The notes under the pieces are model-generated. The model was not told where the DNA came from. It saw only the letters and a program-made list of their open reading frames with translations, and did no database searches. A program made the position numbers and the translations under genes. This document shows positions 8,181 to 34,728 of a stretch of 34,728 bases of DNA, one piece after another. The DNA is from a virus. The stretch lies in the IMG/VR virus record IMGVR_UViG_3300048785_000071, positions 1-34,728 of that record; one strand, 5' to 3'. How positions within the stretch are numbered: the stretch's first letter is position 1; the number at the start of each line of letters is the position of its first letter.

Positions 8181-8357
8181 TCAATGGCTTTCGTAGTCAT
8201 TGGAGCGTGGGAAATTATAAGGATATTCCCGATAGTGCTCCAAGATGACGCAATGAGCGTGGAAAGCAGCGCAACCCACTGTTCCTGCGTGGGAATTGCT
8301 GATTTCAGCTAACCACTGACCGAAGCTCAGTAGAAGGGACTTCAAAAGGGATTTCAT
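8181..8357 (-). CDS. Hypothetical protein, 58 aa, first gene of the leftward operon
   Basis: ATG at 8357-8355 with CAGGAGACG upstream, the first gene reading left from the control region. The N-terminus MKSLLKSLLLSFGQWLAEIS is an amphipathic or short hydrophobic helix, followed by a His/Cys/Tyr-rich part (CAAFHAHCVILEHYREYPYN). The two cysteines and histidines could bind metal. Function is unknown. A second tiny frame that starts within its end (19 codons) is not listed because it lacks a ribosome binding site. Confidence 0.55.
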   Translation of the reverse strand: MKSLLKSLLLSFGQWLAEISNSHAGTVGCAAFHAHCVILEHYREYPYNFPRSNDYESH

Positions 8358-8458
8358 GGTCGTCTCCTGTGGCCATACGCGGCGCGCCGCCGTTTTTCGG
8401 CCTCGCCCCTGCCGCGTCGGGCGCGCTCCTGCCTGGGAATGGCTCGATATCCTGGTTT

Positions 8459-8489
8459 ATCCTACCTTATGAAACAGATTAGGGGTCAA
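8459..8489 (-). promoter_or_regulatory. Weak candidate leftward promoter
   Basis: On the minus strand TTGACC (8489-8484) and TAGGAT (8464-8459) are 19 bp apart, in the right position to drive the leftward operon (leader of about 90 bases). The match to a sigma70 promoter is modest and the spacing long. The -35 overlaps the edge of the first 12-bp repeat cluster, which would fit repression by a repeat-binding protein. Confidence 0.3.
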
Positions 8490-8510
8490 AATGGTGGGGA
8501 AAATGGTGGA
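8488..8510 (+). repeat. 12-bp repeat cluster A (two copies of ATGGTGG)
   Basis: Contains two ATGGTGG cores with GGAAA between them, in plus orientation. It is the shortest of three clusters of the unit GGAAAATGGTGG. Confidence 0.8.
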
Positions 8511-8541
8511 TTTTGGACGGGGTTTGAGGGTGGAATGGTGT

Positions 8542-8643
8542 AATACTTACATATTAAGAGCACAACCAAATATGTCCTTTTAAGATATATACCGTCACAC
8601 CGTGCAACCTTCAGTAGGTAATAAAGCTTAATATGTAAGTATT
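8542..8643. repeat. 17-bp perfect inverted repeat
   Basis: AATACTTACATATTAAG at 8542-8558 recurs as its exact reverse complement at 8627-8643, separated by 68 bp. It lies between repeat clusters A and B. It could form a long-looped hairpin or bind a dimeric protein at two sites. Confidence 0.8.
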
Positions 8644-8672
8644 TGCCTTTTCAAACGATGGGGCTACTAAAA

Positions 8673-8717
8673 CCCACCATTTTCCCCACCATTTTCCCCA
8701 CCATTTTCCCCACCATT
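8673..8717 (-). repeat. 12-bp repeat cluster B (four tandem units, inverted)
   Basis: Three full units CCACCATTTTCC and most of a fourth lie head to tail without spacers, in the opposite orientation to clusters A and C. With cluster C (8807-8850) it can pair almost perfectly over about 44 bp, giving a cruciform around an AT-rich 89-bp centre. Confidence 0.85.
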
Positions 8718-8806
8718 ATTGTAATCATGTAATGACTGGTATTATTGAATATATAATATTTGATCATGTTTTGTTCTCCTTCCAACTTGATGCCTCCTAG
8801 AGCAAC

Positions 8807-8850
8807 ATGGTGGGGAAAATGGTGGGGAAAATGGTGGGGAAAATGGTGGG
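8807..8850 (+). repeat. 12-bp repeat cluster C (four tandem units)
   Basis: Four ATGGTGG cores in GGAAAATGGTGG units, exact reverse complement of cluster B. Exact conservation among ten cores in three clusters implies binding by a specific protein or very recent duplication. Confidence 0.85.
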
Positions 8851-8910
8851 TTCAAACGGCTGTGTCTTTTCCGATTTTCGTGATATTAACATACTAAGGA
8901 CTTTTCCTTA

Positions 8911-9055
8911 ATGGTATCAAGGTGTTAAATTATTAGAGGCCAATTAATATTATCGTATAAATATACAATATTAACGGTACAACCTGATTACCAATATACC
9001 AATGAAATCAATGAGTTAATCTTCCGGTGGGGAGTTCAATGATATCAAGGGGTTA
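8911..9055 (+). repeat. Two 17-bp operator-like direct repeats
   Basis: ATGGTATCAAGGTGTTA (8911-8927) and ATGATATCAAGGGGTTA (9039-9055) match at 15 of 17 positions. The second lies directly ahead of the TATAAT at 9064. A looser third copy (CGGTATCAGGGTAA, about 9077-9090) lies around the expected transcription start. The arrangement resembles repressor or activator sites at the rightward promoter. Confidence 0.5.
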
Positions 9056-9063
9056 CACGGAGG

Positions 9064-9069
9064 TATAAT
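9064..9069 (+). promoter_or_regulatory. Rightward promoter -10 element
   Basis: A perfect TATAAT lies about 115 bp ahead of the ATG at 9186. No good TTGACA is found 16-18 bp upstream; the repeat ATGATATCAAGGGGTTA occupies that place, so the promoter may need an activator or be controlled by a repressor there. Confidence 0.5.
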
Positions 9070-9152
9070 CGCTCGACGGTATCAGGGTAACACCTTCACA
9101 CCTTACCATCGCGCGATGGCTGGGGCGTTGCCCGATGCGGCATGGGTGCGAC

Positions 9153-9185: not shown

Positions 9186-9380
9186 ATGGCGAAACCCCTT
9201 CAAATTGATATCAAGGGCGATGTAATGACCGTCACCATCGACGTTTCAAAGGCGGCATACGATGAAGCGCTTGCCTCTACATCGGGCAAGACTAAACTGG
9301 TCAGTTCCACGCATGGGTTCACTGGTGTTCAGACCCCCGGCGGCATCTGCCAATTGGCGCTGAACCTCACCCACAAGTAA
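9186..9380 (+). CDS. Hypothetical protein, 64 aa, single-gene transcription unit
   Basis: ATG with an excellent ATAGGAG eight bases ahead. The protein begins with two or three beta strands (LQIDIKGDVMTVTIDVS), then a short helix (AYDEALAST), then more strands ending LALNLTHK. The gene is alone between a TATAAT promoter and a strong terminator, and a 12-base sequence (GGCGTTGCCCGA) flanks it on both sides. That layout suggests a strongly or independently expressed early product, perhaps a host-takeover protein. I do not recognise the family; small single-sheet proteins of this size are frequent in phages. Confidence 0.75.
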   Translation: MAKPLQIDIKGDVMTVTIDVSKAAYDEALASTSGKTKLVSSTHGFTGVQTPGGICQLALNLTHK

Positions 9381-9396
9381 CACTAGGCGTTGCCCG

Positions 9397-9435
9397 AGGC
9401 CGCTAGGGAAACCGTTTTTCCTAGCGGCCTTTTCA
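9397..9435 (+). terminator. Rho-independent terminator
   Basis: AGGCCGCTAG pairs perfectly with CTAGCGGCCT across a short A/T-containing loop, and the 3' side runs into TTTTCATT. It closes the single-gene unit 9186-9380. Confidence 0.9.
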
Positions 9436-11295: not shown

Positions 11296-11343
11296 ACATG
11301 CACCTTATTGTGTGGCCGGGCCCGGTGGGGCATAGGTGCATGT
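11296..11343 (+). other. Perfect 10-bp inverted repeat upstream of HNH gene 1
   Basis: ACATGCACCT and AGGTGCATGT enclose 28 bases with a GC-rich core (GGCCGGGCCCGG). It may be a termination/attenuation hairpin or the trace of insertion of the endonuclease gene. The other HNH gene (21544) is also preceded by a perfect 10-bp stem. Confidence 0.5.
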
Positions 11344-11395
11344 AAGTCGTTCGCGCGTTGCGCCGCAGGGGGTACAGCTCCACTGGGCCTACATT

Positions 11396-11827
11396 ATGGC
11401 ATATAAAAACCCCGAAGAAGGAAAGGCTTATCACGCGGCGTGGTATCAGCGTAACCGTGAAAAAAGATTGGCCCAGGGGTTAGCTTGGCGTCTTGCTAAC
11501 AAGGAGAGAATAAAAGATACTGATAAAAAATGGCGAGCAGCTAACCCCCTAAAAGTGCGTGCCTGGTGGCGTCAAAAAGTCTACAATCTAACTCCGGAAG
11601 ATTTTAATGAACTATTGGCAGCCCAGAATGGCTGCTGTGCTGCGTGTTTATCCCCCGATCCAGGCCACAAATATGGGTGGCAAATAGATCACAATCACAA
11701 GACAGGAAAAGTCCGAGCTATTTTGTGTCGGCCGTGCAACCTAGCTCTTGGCCATGCGGGCGAACTACCGTCCCGATTACGTGCGCTTGCCTCGTATATT
11801 GAAATTCACACCCCCGGTGCCCCATGA
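11396..11827 (+). CDS. Endonuclease VII-type HNH protein, 143 aa
   Basis: The C-terminal half carries the recombination endonuclease VII pattern: CAAC (first zinc pair), IDHNHKTGKVRAILCRPCN (catalytic DH-H with second zinc pair CRPC) and NLALGHAGE. The family cleaves branched or double-stranded DNA using one metal ion. The N-terminal half is basic and Arg/Trp-rich (AAWYQRNREKRLAQG), suited to DNA binding. ATG 11396 is chosen over an upstream start because the family opens here. It may be a free-standing homing endonuclease rather than a Holliday-junction resolvase. The local base composition is slightly more AT-rich than its neighbours, fitting recent entry. Confidence 0.85.
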   Translation: MAYKNPEEGKAYHAAWYQRNREKRLAQGLAWRLANKERIKDTDKKWRAANPLKVRAWWRQKVYNLTPEDFNELLAAQNGCCAACLSPDPGHKYGWQIDHNHKTGKVRAILCRPCNLALGHAGELPSRLRALASYIEIHTPGAP

Positions 11828-12447
11828 CTGACCTGTTGCCATCCGAAGAAATTCCAAAAGTTCTCGTGCCATACTGCGTGCGGCTCGCGGACGAAGGCGT
11901 GCCATATCGGGCGATTGCCCGGGCTATGAGGCAGACGGCCGACGCCGTGCGGGATGCGGTTCGCACCGCGGTGCTCACCGGGTCCATCGCCTACTACCCA
12001 AAGGAAGACTGGCCGCCCGGCGCCCACCGCGACACGCGGACCCCGCTCTGGGTGAAGGACAATTACGTGCAGGAGCAGGAGCTGGTATTCTCCTGCGTGC
12101 GCCTGTTCAAGGTGACAAAGTTGCAAGGTGCCCTCCTGGCTGTGTTGATCAATCGAACCGAGGTCACCAAGGACACGATGCACCAGGTGATCGAGAGCCG
12201 GCGATCTTCGCTCAAGGAAGAGACCGACCCCAAGATGGTCGACGTGGTTATCTGCCACTTGCGTAAGCGCCTCAAGCCATTTAACCTGACCATCCACACT
12301 CTGTGGGCCCGCGGGTACTACATGGAGCCGGCCCAGCGCCAGCATATGTTGAACCTGTTGACGCTGTATATTTCCGGCGAGAAACACCCGGACGAGTTGA
12401 AAAAAATGCCAATGGATATAACCAATGCCCACACCGCTGTTAAATGA
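11824..12447 (+). CDS. Two-domain DNA-binding regulator (HTH plus OmpR-like winged helix), 207 aa
   Basis: N-terminal region has a helix-turn-helix-like segment (EGVPYRAIARAMRQTADAVR, about 24-43). Residues about 85-165 follow the pattern of the OmpR/PhoB effector domain: LQGALLAVLINR, then a helix, VDVVICHLRKRLKPF (recognition-helix pattern VDVxIxxLRKKL) and IHTLWARGYYME (wing hairpin, compare IxTVRGxGYxL). There is no receiver domain. So it is probably a transcription factor, perhaps the switch to late genes, which is inference. ATG overlaps the HNH gene stop (ATGA). Confidence 0.65.
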   Translation: MTDLLPSEEIPKVLVPYCVRLADEGVPYRAIARAMRQTADAVRDAVRTAVLTGSIAYYPKEDWPPGAHRDTRTPLWVKDNYVQEQELVFSCVRLFKVTKLQGALLAVLINRTEVTKDTMHQVIESRRSSLKEETDPKMVDVVICHLRKRLKPFNLTIHTLWARGYYMEPAQRQHMLNLLTLYISGEKHPDELKKMPMDITNAHTAVK

Positions 12448-19339: not shown

Positions 19340-20149
19340 ATGAATGCTCACTTTTTAAGCGGGCTCCCGCGTAGCGGCAGCACGCTACTCGCTGCGATCC
19401 TCCAGCAGAACCCGTTTTTGCAAACGTCAATAATTTCGCCCATATATGGGATTGTCAATGCCGTGCAACGTGCGACCGCGGCTAACCAGGAAACGTCCGT
19501 GTTTGTAACCGATGCGGACCGCGCGAACATGATTACCGGTTTATTTTCTGCGTACTACCCGGAAGACCCAAGAATTACTGCGATAGACAGCAATCGCGCC
19601 TGGACCGGAAAATTGCCATTACTAGTCCAGTTGTTTCCAGATTGCCGCTTGATCTGTTGTGTGCGGCAGCCGGCGTGGATTATGGACAGCGTTGAAAAAC
19701 TGTTACGTAAATATCCGTTACAAGTGAGCGGGTTGTTCAAATTTGACGCCAATATGAACGTATTTGATCGTGCTGATATGTTGGCGGCTTCTAACGGGAT
19801 GATCGGGTATCCACTGAATTCATTGAAAGAGGCATACTACGGGCCCTATGCGGACCGTTTAATGTTGGTGGATTATGATGGGCTCGCTGCTAATCCCGCG
19901 CGTGTTATTAGCGCTATTTACGAATGGTTATCCCTCCCCGCGCTAAAACATGACTTCGACAACGTGCAGCCGATACCCGGGGCGTCTGAGTTCGACGCTA
20001 GACTTGGTACTCCTGGTCTCCACGCAGTAGGCAAGCGAGTTCGTAAAATCCCTCGGGAAACTTCCTTGCCGCCCGAACTATTTGCCCGGTTTGCTCCTCC
20101 CTTCTGGTTTAAGCCAAATGGCCGGTCGAAAGTTATCCTAGAGAATTAA
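19340..20149 (+). CDS. Sulfotransferase, 269 aa
   Basis: Starts with the 5'-phosphosulfate-binding loop GLPRSGSTLL (8-17), the classical PAPS site, and contains RLICCVRQPAWIMDS (103-117), in which Arg109 and Ser117 fit the 3'-phosphate site. The family moves sulfuryl from PAPS to hydroxyls of sugars, peptides or lipids. The C-terminal part (EFDARLGTPGLHAVGKRVRK) also follows sulfotransferase patterns. It sits six bases after portal and before two collagen-like genes, so a virion-fibre sugar or threonine is the tempting acceptor, by inference. Host glycans are an alternative. Confidence 0.82.
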   Translation: MNAHFLSGLPRSGSTLLAAILQQNPFLQTSIISPIYGIVNAVQRATAANQETSVFVTDADRANMITGLFSAYYPEDPRITAIDSNRAWTGKLPLLVQLFPDCRLICCVRQPAWIMDSVEKLLRKYPLQVSGLFKFDANMNVFDRADMLAASNGMIGYPLNSLKEAYYGPYADRLMLVDYDGLAANPARVISAIYEWLSLPALKHDFDNVQPIPGASEFDARLGTPGLHAVGKRVRKIPRETSLPPELFARFAPPFWFKPNGRSKVILEN

Positions 20150-20209
20150 GGAACGATCAACGAATTCTAGCGTACCGATATCACGCAGGCAGCCTCGAAG
20201 GGGTCATCT

Positions 20210-20779
20210 ATGTCAACTATTCCCGCGGTCACCAATCCGGATCGAAACCAGATTGGCAATATTCTCGCCCAGGTCGTTGCCGCAGTTAATGCCGGTAACA
20301 TTGGTGGCCCAACCGGTTTGACCGGTCCGACTGGCCCAACTGGTTCAGCAACAGGTTTTACGGGCCCGACAGGCCCTACCGGCGTCACTGGTCCAACCGG
20401 TTCGTTTGGCGGCCCGCAAGGTCCGGCCGGCGCGCAGGGTGCGACTGGTAACACTGGTCCGACGGGTCCGACGGGTGCAAACCCGGCTGGTCCGGCTGGC
20501 CCCGCCGGTGCCACTGGTCAGGCTGGTGGCCCGACTGGTCCGACTGGCACGACTGGCGCTACCGGCCCCGCCGGTAGCTCTGGCCCCACGGGCACCACGG
20601 GCACCACGACAGGGCCTACCGGTGCAACTGGTCAAGGTGTAACTGGTGCCACGGGTGCGACCGGTAACACTGGTCCGACCGGGACCACGGTGACATTGTT
20701 CATCCCGCCGCTCGCGGACCCGTATGTGGTCAACCAGGTGTGGAACAACAGTGGCGTACTGACTATCTCGAACGGGTAA
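20210..20779 (+). CDS. Collagen-like fibre protein 1, 189 aa
   Basis: An N-terminal helical domain of 30 residues ([20 protein letters not shown]) leads into about 120 residues of Gly-X-Y triplets, chiefly GPT, GAT and GNT. Then comes a short C-terminal domain ([20 protein letters not shown]) ending LTISNG. Such repeats form collagen triple helices in phage fibres without hydroxyproline. N-terminal helix and C-terminal cap probably trimerise the protein. Threonine in the Y position is abundant and is a possible glycosylation site, as in the Bacillus BclA filament. No clear separate promoter is seen. Confidence 0.85.
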
Positions 20780-20788
20780 AGGTTGAGC

Positions 20789-21475
20789 ATGGCCAAGTAT
20801 GTAAATCCGCTGACCCCGGCACCTAAGCCGCCGCAGTCGTATGATGACAACGAAATTCCAGCGGTGCTGGAGGAAGTCGTTGAGCTGATCAACAATGCCA
20901 ACGTTTATGGCCCGGCCGGCGCAACCGGTTTGAAGGGTCCTACGGCAGCGGCCGCGGGTAGCTCGACAGGTCCAACTGGGATAATTGGTGCCGGCGCTCA
21001 TGGCCCTTCACAGGGTCAAACTGGTCCGACGGGTTGTACAGGCCCACAGGGTCCCGGTCTCACTATTAATGCAAGCACTGGTGTTTCTGGTACCTCTCCT
21101 ACAGGTCCATCAGGTACCACCCATACCGGCGCGACTGGTCCGACTGGCACGACAGGTCCATTTGTCGGATTGCCCGGTCTTTCACCAACTGGCTTTACCG
21201 GCCCTACTGGCATCACCGGCGCGACGGGCATTGGGCCGTTTGGTAAGACTGGTCCGACTTCGGCCACAGGCTCCACGGGCATCACCGGCGTCACCGGTCC
21301 CGCGGGCTACAACAAAAATCCGGCCACGTTTACAAAGTTCGTTGTGCTCAAGGTGGACCCGCATATTCTCGGTGCGGTATATCGCGTTCATGATCCTGGA
21401 CCAACGGGCACGACCGGCGCTACTGGCTTCGGTTATGCCGGCATGACTGGCCCGCTCCGAATTTCCAACGGATAA
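20789..21475 (+). CDS. Collagen-like fibre protein 2, 228 aa
   Basis: ATG 20789 with AAAGG six bases upstream is chosen over the TTG at 20783. Architecture parallels the previous gene: N-terminal helical region ([18 protein letters not shown]), broken Gly-X-Y triplets with more interruptions, a C-terminal domain ([20 protein letters not shown]) and a terminal LRISNG. The shared ends mark the two as paralogues. They lie in tandem between a sulfotransferase and the glycosyltransferase genes, and probably form fibre or head decorations, which is inference. Confidence 0.82.
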
Positions 21476-21490
21476 CAGTTGACACGAAAT

Positions 21491-21517
21491 GAGCTATAGG
21501 CTAAAAACCTATAGCTC
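21491..21517 (+). other. Perfect 10-bp stem-loop upstream of HNH gene 2
   Basis: GAGCTATAGG, loop CTAAAAA and CCTATAGCTC. No T-run follows, so it is not an obvious terminator on the plus strand; it may trim the fibre mRNA or mark the entry of the HNH gene. Confidence 0.55.
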
Positions 21518-21543
21518 AAACCCCGATCCCCTTCGGAGTGTCA

Positions 21544-21924
21544 ATGCCGTCTAGTCCAGAATATTCAAAGGCGTGGCGTAAACGTAATAAGGCACGTTGC
21601 GCGGAGTATTCACGCAAAAATCGTCCGCGGTACCAGCAATGGCGCGACGACAATAAGCTACGCATAAAAAATCTCAATCAGATTAGGTTATATGGCATCA
21701 CGCTAGAACAGCGGGATGCTATTTTTATGTCCCAAAATTACAAATGCGCTGCGTGTGGTAGTGATGCGGCGGGCACGCGAAAGGGCTGGACTACAGATCA
21801 CGACCACGATACCGGAAAAGTTAGGGGAATTTTATGCCAACCTTGTAATTTGATCGCTGGTCATGCGGTAGACAGCCCTAAGCACCTGCGGCTCGTTGCA
21901 GATTATCTGGAGAAGTACAAGTGA
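21544..21924 (+). CDS. Endonuclease VII-type HNH protein, 126 aa
   Basis: Second member of the family found at 11396-11827. It has CAAC (zinc), TTDHDHDTGKVRGILCQPCN (catalytic DH-H and zinc CQPC), then NLIAGHAVD. The basic N-terminus (MPSSPEYSKAWRKRNKARC) is shorter. ATG 21544 with CGGAG upstream is preferred. It lies inside a late-gene/glycosylation insert, typical for free-standing homing endonucleases that spread neighbouring DNA. Its stop overlaps the next gene start. Confidence 0.85.
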   Translation: MPSSPEYSKAWRKRNKARCAEYSRKNRPRYQQWRDDNKLRIKNLNQIRLYGITLEQRDAIFMSQNYKCAACGSDAAGTRKGWTTDHDHDTGKVRGILCQPCNLIAGHAVDSPKHLRLVADYLEKYK

Positions 21925-23924
21925 AATTAATGCTCAATTGTATTGTTAAGAACGAAGCTGACCGAATTGAGCGAATGCTCAAGAGTGTGGCCCCCCATAT
22001 TGATAGCTATGCCATTGTTGACACAGGAAGCACCGATGACACCATACAAAAGATTGAAGGGTTCTTCGCCGCGGCATCAATTCCCGGCGAGATCACGCAC
22101 GCTCCATTCGTTAACTTTGAGCAGGCCCGGAATGCCGCTCTCGCTCTCGCGCGAAAATCGCCGCTTTCTTGGGACTATCTGCTCCTGTGTGACGCGGATA
22201 TGGAGCTGGTTGTCGAGGACAAAAATTTCAAAAAACAACTAGGCAGCGGCATGGCCTATAACGTCGTGCAGAAGGGTGGCACGCTGTCCTACCACAATGC
22301 GCGCTTCGTCAGCCGTGCTGCCACTGGAAACTATGTAGGTGTGACGCACGAATATCTTGACGTGACCACGGCTGGCGAGGTGCATGGAATTTACTTTCAA
22401 GATCATGCAGATGGCTCTAATCGCAAGAATAAGTCCGTACGAGATATTCGACTGTTGAAGGAAGCAATAAAGACGGACCCAAACAATGGTAGATCGTGGT
22501 TCTATCTTGCTCAGTCTTATAAGGATGCGGGCCAACCGGAGAAGGCTGCGAAGGCTTATCGCAAAAGGATTGAACTCGGGGGATGGGACGAGGAAATCTG
22601 GAATGCTAGCTTTAACCTCGCTAATACGCTCCGCGAGAGTGGAAATGATAGTGGCTTTGTGGCCGAAATGTTGGGGGCATACAATTTTCGTCCCAGTCGT
22701 GCGGAAACCCTCTATGCACTAGCTAACTACTACAGAACTAAAGGTATGAATTATGCCGCGCTCCTAGTTGCCGAAGAGGGGTTACGCATCAAGCGTCCCG
22801 GCGATCTGTTGTTTGTGAATGACTATGTCTACACCATTGGGCTGCGCGAAGAGTTCGCTATCGTAGCGTACTACGATAAGGCTCGCCGCGAGCGTGGGTT
22901 TGATATGTGCAACTATGTTGCACTGTCTAAGGACGCCAGCGATTTCTCCCGAGAGCAAGCGCGCGGCAATCTGTTTCATTATATCCGGCCCCTGTCTGAG
23001 AGAATGTCGTCATTCTCCACCCGCCGGATTGCGTTCACCCCGCCGGATGGATACACCGCGATGAACCCGTCTATAGCGGTGGCTAATGGACAAATTTGTG
23101 TGCTGGTGCGAACTGTCAACTACACGATGGACGAGCAAGGGCGGTACCTGATCAAAAGCACAAACGGCGAAGCGAACTCAACCAACCCGATCAACACCCG
23201 TAATTTTTTGGTATCATTGAAAGATAACTTTGAGGTCAATCAACACGCAGAGGTTAAGGCCCATTTGCCGAAGCCGGCATATGATCTGGTAACCGGGTTT
23301 GAAGACATGCGGTTGTTCAGCTGGAATAACAGCTGGTGGATTAACGCTTGTGTGCGGGAACAGAACCACGAGGGCTGGTGTGAGCAATGGTTGGCCAGGA
23401 TTGACGTTGGCAAAACAAATGCCCCCGGAACGTTTGTTACCTGCGCCACACTCACCGATGCTCGGGCCATGCTGCCGGCGCACCGCCAGCACGAGAAGAA
23501 CTGGATGCCGTGGGTTGACGGCAATGATTTAGAGTTTGCTTATCGTCTGGGTGTCACTGTGCGCCCTAACGGTGTTGAAAAATCGCGCACGCCCATCAAC
23601 ATTGCGGCTGACGCGATCAGTGGAAGTTCACAGGTGATCCCATTTAAGTGCGGCTTCCTGTCAGTCGTGCATGAGGCCCGCGTGCATCCACACAACGGCA
23701 AGCGCTACTATCAGCACCGGTTCGTGTGGTACGACAAGTCAAAGACAGTTCAGCGGATCACCAAGCCGTTCTACTTTCACGATAAAGTGATCGAGTTTGT
23801 GGCCGGGCTCGCGTGGCACCCGAACGGTCAGAGCATCATGATTTCGTACGGCCGCGAGGACAAGGAAGCCTGGATTGCGACCGTGGACGCCAACGAGCTA
23901 TCGGAGTTTATCTGGCATGACTAG
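21921..23924 (+). CDS. Fusion: GT2 glycosyltransferase, TPR region, beta-propeller, 667 aa
   Basis: Domain 1 (about 1-170): GT2 fold, with NCIVKNEADRIERMLKS, VDTGSTDDT (36-ish) and the metal/nucleotide-sugar DxD (CDADM, 90-94). Domain 2 (about 175-300): TPR-like helices (RSWFYLAQSYKDAGQPEKAA). Domain 3 (about 350-667): blade-like repeats with GFEDMRLF (459-466), EKNWMPW (525-531), HEARVHP and IEFVAGLAW, as in the five-bladed GH43/GH130-type propellers. So one chain could transfer a sugar and bind or cleave a glycan. ATG overlaps the HNH stop (GTGA). The fusion organisation is known in some bacteria; acceptor unknown. Confidence 0.8.
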   Translation: MKLMLNCIVKNEADRIERMLKSVAPHIDSYAIVDTGSTDDTIQKIEGFFAAASIPGEITHAPFVNFEQARNAALALARKSPLSWDYLLLCDADMELVVEDKNFKKQLGSGMAYNVVQKGGTLSYHNARFVSRAATGNYVGVTHEYLDVTTAGEVHGIYFQDHADGSNRKNKSVRDIRLLKEAIKTDPNNGRSWFYLAQSYKDAGQPEKAAKAYRKRIELGGWDEEIWNASFNLANTLRESGNDSGFVAEMLGAYNFRPSRAETLYALANYYRTKGMNYAALLVAEEGLRIKRPGDLLFVNDYVYTIGLREEFAIVAYYDKARRERGFDMCNYVALSKDASDFSREQARGNLFHYIRPLSERMSSFSTRRIAFTPPDGYTAMNPSIAVANGQICVLVRTVNYTMDEQGRYLIKSTNGEANSTNPINTRNFLVSLKDNFEVNQHAEVKAHLPKPAYDLVTGFEDMRLFSWNNSWWINACVREQNHEGWCEQWLARIDVGKTNAPGTFVTCATLTDARAMLPAHRQHEKNWMPWVDGNDLEFAYRLGVTVRPNGVEKSRTPINIAADAISGSSQVIPFKCGFLSVVHEARVHPHNGKRYYQHRFVWYDKSKTVQRITKPFYFHDKVIEFVAGLAWHPNGQSIMISYGREDKEAWIATVDANELSEFIWHD

Positions 23925-30221: not shown

Positions 30222-30647
30222 GTGGCTGACAGAGATAGCAATCAATCCCAGGCGCTGGATACGGTTCAGGACTATATCACAGAAGCGCGGATACTCCTGC
30301 AAGATATTATAAGTCCGCCTCGATATGAGGACACGTCGCTATTGTCGGCGCTCAATCTCATGTTGTTGGAAGCGCGCCGCATTCGTGCTGACCTGTTTAT
30401 AGGGAAGCACGGTACGAGGGTTCCATACTTCGCCACCGTAGACGACACGCAAGTGGACATTGAGCCGGCGTTTCGGCTCGCTTTCTTGTATGGCATGGTA
30501 GGCCACGCGCTCCAGCGCGATCAGGAAGATATCGAGGATCAACGGGCATCTGCGTTTTTGGGCGCGTTCAATTCAATTTTGAACGGACAAGCCGCTTCGA
30601 CCATGATCACGCCCCCGGCCGGCGGCGCTCCTAGGAGGGCTGCGTAA
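30222..30647 (+). CDS. Head-tail adaptor protein (SU10-adaptor-like), 141 aa
   Basis: Start GTG 30222 has GGGGG upstream; an ATG ten codons earlier is possible. Helical N-terminal half (VQDYITEARILLQDIIS, then LLSALNLMLLEARRIRADLF) with DTQVDIEPAFRLAFLYGMVG, matches the connector fold of podovirus-like adaptors that link portal to the tail. The C-terminal Pro/Gly/Ala tail is disordered. Position just after coat fits. Confidence 0.7.
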   Translation: MADRDSNQSQALDTVQDYITEARILLQDIISPPRYEDTSLLSALNLMLLEARRIRADLFIGKHGTRVPYFATVDDTQVDIEPAFRLAFLYGMVGHALQRDQEDIEDQRASAFLGAFNSILNGQAASTMITPPAGGAPRRAA

Positions 30648-31342
30648 TGGCTATTAACAACGAGGATATGACCCGACTGATGAACCAGGCGCGTATCAAG
30701 TTGATTGGCGCGTCTGATGCCGGCATCAAGAATGAACTGTTTGAAGTCTTCACCGAGTTCTTCGATATTTCGTCTTGCTGGACTGAGCAAGTTGATATTG
30801 ATGCGTTGGCCAATCAAGCGGACTATGACATATCGGTTAGCGAAGGACAGGTTATTCGCCTGGGCGGCGCTGCGGCCAGCTCGCTGTATTCTACTTCGGC
30901 TGCACTCGAAGCAGCCGAGGCGCTCAACAACGGACAGTCATTGGGCTTTCACCCGCAGACTGCCTTCATGCCGGACTTTGGCACGTTGCATCTGATCAAT
31001 CCGCCTAGTTCTCCGCAGGCCATGCGCGTCACGGTAATCAAGAACGTTGTCTTACCGACCACGCGCGACGCGGTGCCTATTGCTCCGGTCTGGGTCTTGC
31101 CGGTTTACAGCCGATACATCTTGGCTGGTGTTTTGGGGAATATGATGAACCACCCCCAAAAGAGTTATTCAAGTGACACTTTGGGTACATATAATTTGAA
31201 ACGGTTCCAGGAAGGTATCTCGCGCGCCCGTGTTGCGGCTATGCGGGGCAACACGTTTGGCGCCCAGGCTTGGTCGTTTCCGCAAGGGTTCAAAACGCGA
31301 AGCCAAAAGAGTTTCACGAGTATGGGTAGCGGTGGGGCATAA
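30647..31342 (+). CDS. Putative tail/connector protein, 231 aa
   Basis: ATG overlaps the adaptor stop (TAATG). The N-terminal 45 residues are helical (MAINNEDMTRLMNQARIKLI), followed by strand-rich sequences (DYDISVSEGQVIRLG; MRVTVIKNVVLPTTRDAV) and a C-terminal helical part with Gly/Ser tail. Probably the next ring of the short-tail machinery (nozzle or stopper), by position. No named family is recognised. Confidence 0.55.
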   Translation: MAINNEDMTRLMNQARIKLIGASDAGIKNELFEVFTEFFDISSCWTEQVDIDALANQADYDISVSEGQVIRLGGAAASSLYSTSAALEAAEALNNGQSLGFHPQTAFMPDFGTLHLINPPSSPQAMRVTVIKNVVLPTTRDAVPIAPVWVLPVYSRYILAGVLGNMMNHPQKSYSSDTLGTYNLKRFQEGISRARVAAMRGNTFGAQAWSFPQGFKTRSQKSFTSMGSGGA

Positions 31343-31719: not shown

Positions 31720-32694
31720 ATGACGGTTACTCGCATTGGCATCGGAGCCCCGGCCGACGTTATCCCCGTTGCCGTGGTTACGCATAATGTACCTTCGCCG
31801 GTATCCGCGATGCCTGTTGTTGTGGTGAATGGTCCTTCTGGTGCAACAGGACCCGCGGGCGGCCCAACTGGTTCAACAGGTCCAACCGGACGTACTGGGC
31901 CGACTGGAATATCGCCTACTGGCGCTACAGGGCCGACGGGTGTAACTGGTTATGCTGATACGGGCCCAACTGGTCCCACGGGGAAAACCGGTCCTCCTGG
32001 TAATGTGGGAAGCACTGGCGCAGTCAGCACCGTGCCCGGGCCAACTGGTTCTTCGGGGCCAACTGGTTTGCCAGGTACCGCTAGCGGCACTGGCGCGACG
32101 GGGCCAACAGGCATCACCGGGCCAACTGGGATAACCGGCTCAGCCGGCGTGGCTACAAACACTGGTGCGACTGGTCCTACAGGTGTGCAAGGGAACGCCG
32201 GGGTAACGGGTAATACCGGGCCTATCAGCACCGCGGCTAGCACAGTAACGGGCCCTACCGGGAATACGGGCCCAACAGGATTACAGGGGGCGCCTAGCAC
32301 TGTCACTGGGCCGACGGGTATCCCTGGTCTAGCTACTTCTACTGGTGCCACCGGCCCAACCGGCGTGCCGTCCATCCCGCAGAACTCGCAGAGCGTAAAT
32401 TACACTACCGTGCTGTCTGATGCCGAGGGCCATATATTTCATCCTAGCTCCGACACCACGGCGCGGACTTGGACAATCGCTGCGAACTCCAGTGTGGCTT
32501 ATCCTATTGGTACGGCGATCACGTTTGTGAACCAAACGCTCGCTGGCGTTCTAACGATAAACTGCGCCGATACTATGTATTTTGCCGGATCACCAACCAC
32601 TTCTGGCGGAAGAACATTGACCGCGATTGGTATCGCTACGGCCCTCAAAGTGGCTTCAACGGTGTGGATTATTACAGGGACGAACTTGACCTAA
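31720..32694 (+). CDS. Collagen-like fibre protein 3, 324 aa
   Basis: N-terminal 40 residues are a beta/Pro start ([19 protein letters not shown]), then about 180 residues of Gly-X-Y triplets with many GPT, interrupted by ST(V)TGPTG spacers, then a C-terminal beta domain of 100 residues ([18 protein letters not shown] ... [10 protein letters not shown]) that could cap the trimer and bind the receptor. ATG follows GGGGAATTAAG. This is likely a tail-fibre shaft-and-tip. Confidence 0.83.

Positions 32695-33599: not shown

Positions 33600-34728
<1,129 letters not shown>

Follow-up and report, generated by a model that had tools for sequence, protein, structure and literature searches.

The window analysed here, a stretch of 34,728 bp, is one IMG/VR record (IMGVR_UViG_3300048785_000071) of an uncultured phage contig, and the same phage is represented by a longer contig (G001; 66,176 bp), in which position 1 of the window corresponds to position 31992. 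The nearest isolates are the Rhizobium phages RHph_TM, with a terminase identity of 50%, and a DNA similarity search against phages or plasmids gave nothing significant. We focused on an intergenic region between two divergent operons. The leftward operon opens with a 58-aa ORF (8181-8357, minus strand) and continues in G001 to PolA, a SNF2 helicase and a primase-helicase, and the rightward early operon opens with a 64-aa ORF (9186-9380, plus strand), which has homologues in the related genomes G002, G003, G004 and G005; to the right of the region come the genes for terminase, portal and capsid. The PolA gene in G001 is in two parts, separated by an intervening gene for 148 aa (G001 30346-30792) that appears HNH-like by eye. 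Endonuclease VII-like genes are present at two sites in the window (11336-11827 and 21538-21924), as is a pair of minus-strand tRNA-like genes (1263-1336 and 1419-1492), which are 90% alike and one of which has an odd anticodon call. Long collagen-like GPTG repeats occur in several genes (20210-21475, 31720-32694 and 33907-34728), and both ends of the G001 contig fall in such a repeat.

A word count in the window revealed ten ATGGTGG cores in three blocks of the intergenic region, with a 12-bp period inside each block. Cluster A (8488-8512, plus strand) consists of two units at 8491 and 8503, cluster B (8671-8717, minus strand) of four at 8674, 8686, 8698 and 8710, and cluster C (8804-8852, plus strand) of four at 8807, 8819, 8831 and 8843. 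A preliminary description of this DNA had reported cores in numbers of 2, 4 and 4 and in the orientations plus, minus and plus, in AT-rich DNA between divergent operons, and all of this was reproduced exactly, with the region having a GC content of 44.7% compared with 55.3% in the whole window. The exact 12-bp repeat that it described was found as seven full copies of the unit ATGGTGGGGAAA (one in A and three each in B and C), whereas the final unit of every block ends after the core. The complementarity of clusters B and C was also confirmed, although it is slightly longer than the approximately 44 bp described, with two 46-nt arms (8671-8716 and 8807-8852) being 100% complementary and having 90 nt between them. 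The word AATGGTGG is present in 11 copies in the window compared with 1.4 expected, a number reached by none of 100 shuffles, and 9 of the 11 fall within 8490-8849; similarly, the word count of the repeat region was reached by none of 200 region-level shuffles. As for the suggestion to look for the 12-mer elsewhere in the genome, all eight copies of AAAATGGTGG in the 66-kb G001 are confined to the repeat region. The region thus contains tandem short direct repeats, by which iteron origins are characterized.

Other elements and base composition of the intergenic region

The AT-rich spacer between clusters B and C (8718-8805), with a GC content of 30.7%, is a candidate unwinding element, and the 60-mer with the lowest GC content in the 66-kb G001 (20%) starts at window position 8715, between the same clusters. 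An A/T-rich segment beside the repeats, which is another characteristic of iteron origins, is therefore indicated by the base composition. The spacer includes ATGTAATGACTGGTATTATTGAATA (8727-8751, plus strand), for which the same sequence is present in G002 and inside which lies an extended -10-like element, TGGTATTAT (8737-8745, plus strand), that is missing from the related locus L015. It also includes ATGTTTTGTTCTC (8766-8778, plus strand), which is invariant across the window, G002 and L015. Between clusters A and B, a 17-nt perfect inverted repeat (8542-8558 and 8627-8643; 8542-8643 overall) encloses a GGTTGCACGGTGTGACGGT box (8591-8609, minus strand), at the position of which G002 and L015 have other words. 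Boxes of a tandem 8-bp motif, GGTNNNAN x2, are found as GGTGGAATGGTGTAA (8529-8543), GGTATCAAGGTGTTAA (8913-8928) and GGTATCAGGGTAACA (9078-9092), all on the plus strand, the last being accompanied by a minus-strand box at 9087-9102 and preceded by a candidate -10 sequence, TATAAT (9064-9069). The rightward transcript has a leader box, TGCCCGATGCGGCATGGG (9129-9146, plus strand), that is kept in G002 and L015, and the leftward transcript has a related one, GCCCGACGCGGCA (8410-8422, minus strand). We also noticed GCCCGAYGCGGCA, or a sequence closely resembling it, ahead of genes to the left and to the right (9124-9146, 9386-9408 and 8410-8422), and this recurrent type of leader box is present in G002 and L015 too. 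A sigma-70 scan gave one site, with shuffles giving more, and a terminator scan gave none.

Comparison of ten genomes indicated that the region is the 500-bp segment with the lowest GC content in eight of them (G001-G007 and G009). The preliminary description had proposed a GC-skew switch as a check, and the outcome was mixed: in six of the ten, the minimum of the detrended cumulative GC skew is located within about 2.1 kb of the region (offsets of -1.1 kb in G001, +1.15 kb in G002, +0.7 kb in G003, +1.3 kb in G007, -2.1 kb in G009 and -0.7 kb in W01), but not in the other four, in which the minimum is 4.3 kb off (G008) or far away (G004, G005 and G006). The probability of such proximity by chance is about 7% per genome by our own arithmetic, to be read with the genomes being related and gene orientation also switching here. 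In a two-factor fit of the skew, nine of the ten genomes had a larger coefficient for the side of the origin than for the gene strand. Regarding other compositional features, GANTC is nearly absent from the whole contigs of G001, G002, G005, G006 and W01 (1, 1, 1, 1 and 0 sites, respectively, compared with about 250 expected from the base composition, as worked out by hand), and G003, G004 and G007-G009 have 29-90 sites. This near absence points to CcrM-bearing alphaproteobacterial hosts, and the hosts are probably Alphaproteobacteria.

The equivalent region in related phages

A terminase search yielded 37 loci as the source of relatives, and when three neighbouring proteins were used to look for additional close relatives, only G001, G002 and L015 emerged. 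In G002, in which the terminase is 96% identical, three blocks of four, four and two to three copies are kept in the alternating plus, minus and plus order relative to the flanking genes, despite the fact that much of the other intergenic sequence differs from that of the window. L015, with a terminase identity of 91%, carries opposed blocks of a variant unit, ATGGTGGAAA; the exact block plan is shared by the window and G002 only. Alignment of the three regions left islands that correspond to the blocks, a ACCGTCACACCGTGCAACC-like box, ATGTTTTGTTCTC and the leader boxes on both sides. In both relatives, the arms are imperfectly complementary to each other and tandem copies of the unit are retained. 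Absence of the repeats from all relatives, which the preliminary description had named as evidence against its reading, was thus not observed, given the layout in G002 and the variant in L015. Two viral hits, L010 and L011, each had one copy and no array and look like chance matches.

Several relatives have different words at the same place. When word overrepresentation was scored for each region (k = 8, 200 shuffles), AAATGTCC was found in nine copies in G005, AGCATTTC in seven in G006, AATGATCC in five in G007, ATTCGCCA in eight in G008 and GCTAATAA in five in L015, none of these being matched in the 200 shuffles. G009 and L042 have CATAATCC in common, in four copies (1% of shuffles), AAATGCC in G004 is suggestive only, and TGCATAATATGC was noted in G014, outside the shuffle-scored set. 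Several of these words recur at a spacing of 8-9 bp, and most are present in opposed orientations. A significant clustered word was absent from the equivalent region of G003, W01, L029 and L031, and a single word common to all distant relatives was not above shuffles. The unusual part is that clustered words are present at a conserved divergent early intergenic region, with the word differing by phage. We tentatively suggest that the position of an origin might be fixed while one phage after another substitutes a different iteron word, each lineage having a private initiator-iteron pair. If so, the family would provide a natural series for learning how an origin is selected by a DUF927 primase-helicase or by a protein acting as its partner, and such private pairs would possibly be a barrier against co-infecting relatives.

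The tandem GGTNNNAN motif is, on the other hand, family-wide. In 14 equivalent regions, 39 were found compared with 0.49 expected and 5 in the largest shuffle, an enrichment that is somewhat optimistic because the pattern was shaped partly on the same sequences. Its density is at least 17-fold that of the remaining genome where the motif is present, and none was found in the regions of G004, W01 and L031.

Candidate proteins and the function of the repeats

We lean, with the balance of probability slightly on this side, towards the three blocks being iterons, with a bidirectional origin of replication situated where the divergent early promoters lie. Such an origin is the most economical reading and is of a kind already known. 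A phage-encoded initiator would bind the tandem 12-bp units as arrays, the A/T-rich spacer, on either side of which arrays B and C are opposed, would open, the primase-helicase would load and prime bidirectionally, and extension would be carried out by the phage PolA. This is favoured by the layout kept in G002 despite differing intergenic DNA, together with the opposed blocks in L015, and by the fact that the 60-mer GC minimum of the genome falls between inverted arrays, with a skew minimum nearby. It is also favoured by the replication genes of the phage, which encode PolA, a SNF2 helicase and a DUF927 primase-helicase of 992 aa that has initiator helicases with iteron-binding activity among its relatives. 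In the satellite phage P4, ori and crr carry 8-bp repeats in alternating orientation. The difference in the word among relatives would be expected if initiator-iteron pairs diverge, and we counted it for an origin. Against it, we counted the discordant skew minima in G004, G005 and G006 and at 4.3 kb in G008, and the lack of a significant clustered word in G003, L029, L031 and W01. Origin function, the binding of a protein to the repeats and the identity of the binder are what we infer here.

The primase-helicase gene (G001 19513-22488) is at the end of the leftward operon, and the protein consists of an AEP-like primase, which was recognized by eye with no Pfam match, a DUF927 helicase (PF06048, 8.3e-20) and a C-terminal domain. 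The helicase part matches a staphylococcal pathogenicity-island protein (PDB 8tch, 2.9e-8) and an SCC helicase (PDB 5dgk, 1.4e-6). An AlphaFold model of the protein was unreliable (pLDDT 35). A homologue over nearly the whole length is annotated as a putative integrase in L058 (MN988472.1 42239-45322). Between G001 and G002, identity is 95% in the primase, 44% in the helicase and 55% in the C-terminal part, although both phages have the same 12-bp units, and this was counted against an origin. Because the helicase and C-terminal part have diverged beside an unchanged word, the C-terminal domain may not read the repeats; another protein may be the reader, or the contacts may be preserved. Along the two genes (G001 19513-22488 and G002 41873-44824), the identity is 95% over residues 1-380 and 44-66% past about residue 400, a sharp change that, as judged from the alignment, would be a module exchange. 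The repeats (G001 40482-40840) are about 18 kb from this gene, whereas SaPI and SCC origins adjoin theirs, and the gap was also counted against an origin.

The main rival is a multi-site operator, in which a phage regulator, either a 207-aa protein of the OmpR type or some other early gene product, would bind the units as an oligomer, and the opposed clusters B and C would clamp or loop a promoter between them to switch the divergent early operons. We consider this rather unlikely, but it is the alternative that survives best. Divergent early operons are indeed present on either side, the extended -10-like TGGTATTAT in the B-C spacer is unchanged in G002, and an OmpR-type protein, as an operator array would call for, is encoded by the phage: the 207-aa candidate regulator (11824-12447, plus strand) combines a helix-turn-helix at its N terminus with a winged helix of the OmpR type (Trans_reg_C), is without a receiver domain and is conserved family-wide. 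Its identity is 89% and 82% in the two phages that carry the 12-bp word or the variant of it, compared with 34-49% in the other phages. Its recognition helix is, however, nearly invariant across the family, so that it should read a family-wide motif like GGTNNNAN x2 rather than a changing word; the fit of this helix to the family-wide GGT motif is better, as far as can be told from the protein sequences. OmpR-type half-sites are usually spaced at 10-11 bp, whereas the units here are at 12 bp and the GGT motif at 8 bp. Furthermore, the extended -10 is lost in L015, and an operator does not require the 60-mer GC minimum of the genome to lie between its arrays. Of the two readings in the preliminary description, iterons of an origin and a multi-site repressor, the former has gained support from the layout, the lowest-GC 60-mer, the skew and DUF927, and the repressor retains the -10-like box and the OmpR-type protein. 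An origin with iterons and a multi-site operator can coexist.

Other alternatives are less likely. It is very improbable that the opposed arrays work through DNA or RNA structure, with the 46-nt arms forming a cruciform or a transcript fold that would serve as a signal; although the single strand folds at z = -11.7 and pRN1 has an origin that consists of a large stem-loop and lacks iterons (PMC4234260), the arms in G002 and L015 are imperfect complements that nevertheless keep the tandem copies of the unit, and block A plays no part in the hairpin. Sites for a host protein such as DnaA or MraZ, or a parS-type partition array, are likewise highly improbable: TGGGGAAAA departs from the DnaA box at a single base and two TTATCCACC are present in G002, but the DnaA box (TTWTNCACA) is absent from the region of the ten genomes and L015, the 19-mer turned up only as 11 single copies, with no array, when 84,980 prokaryote species were scanned with one genome each, and no ParA/ParB gene was identified among the scanned proteins. 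The 11 bacterial and archaeal copies were taken as chance. A CtrA-like TTAA-N7-TTAA box was not found in the region of the window, nor were the DnaA boxes of a DnaA-dependent origin.

If the preferred reading, an origin with iterons, is right, the origin of an uncultured phage family has been located, and its relatives form a series in which the primase-helicases are homologous but the candidate iteron words differ. The specificity of these initiator helicases would then become testable by sequence and simple binding tests, and plasmids for use in the hosts might be given a short replicon.

Comparison with known systems

Mycobacteriophage L5 stoperators and phage operator arrays have asymmetric short sites in both orientations, whereas the exact sites here are limited to one genome region and no repressor or integrase was identified. 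The PLE of Vibrio cholerae has a RepA_N initiator and iterons in a noncoding region (PMC7145576). The likeness is that of a phage-related noncoding origin in which the iteron is one of several types of repeat (PMC7145576), whereas no RepA_N protein was identified in the phage, and the repeat unit and candidate initiator are unrelated.

In the SaPI/SCC systems (SaPIBov1 Rep and Cch, with DUF927; SaPI5 Rep and Cch2), the iterons are the landing site of the helicase (PMC7581432), and the phage helicase is homologous by sequence and has DUF927. It differs in being fused to a primase, in being accompanied by a PolA of the phage's own and in its gene being distant from the repeats, rather than beside the origin. 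In P4, the winged helix of the alpha protein binds the origin repeats (PMC4234260), and the type 1 repeats in the P4 record, GGTGAACA, are 8 bp long and in alternating orientation in ori and crr. The unit of this phage is, in contrast, 12 bp at an exact 12-bp period, its primase is AEP-like rather than Toprim, and a separate crr was not found. The likeness to P4 ori1/crr lies in short repeats, alternating clusters, a second repeat family and a primase-helicase (PMC4234260), and the family-wide GGTNNNAN motif is similar to the P4 repeat.
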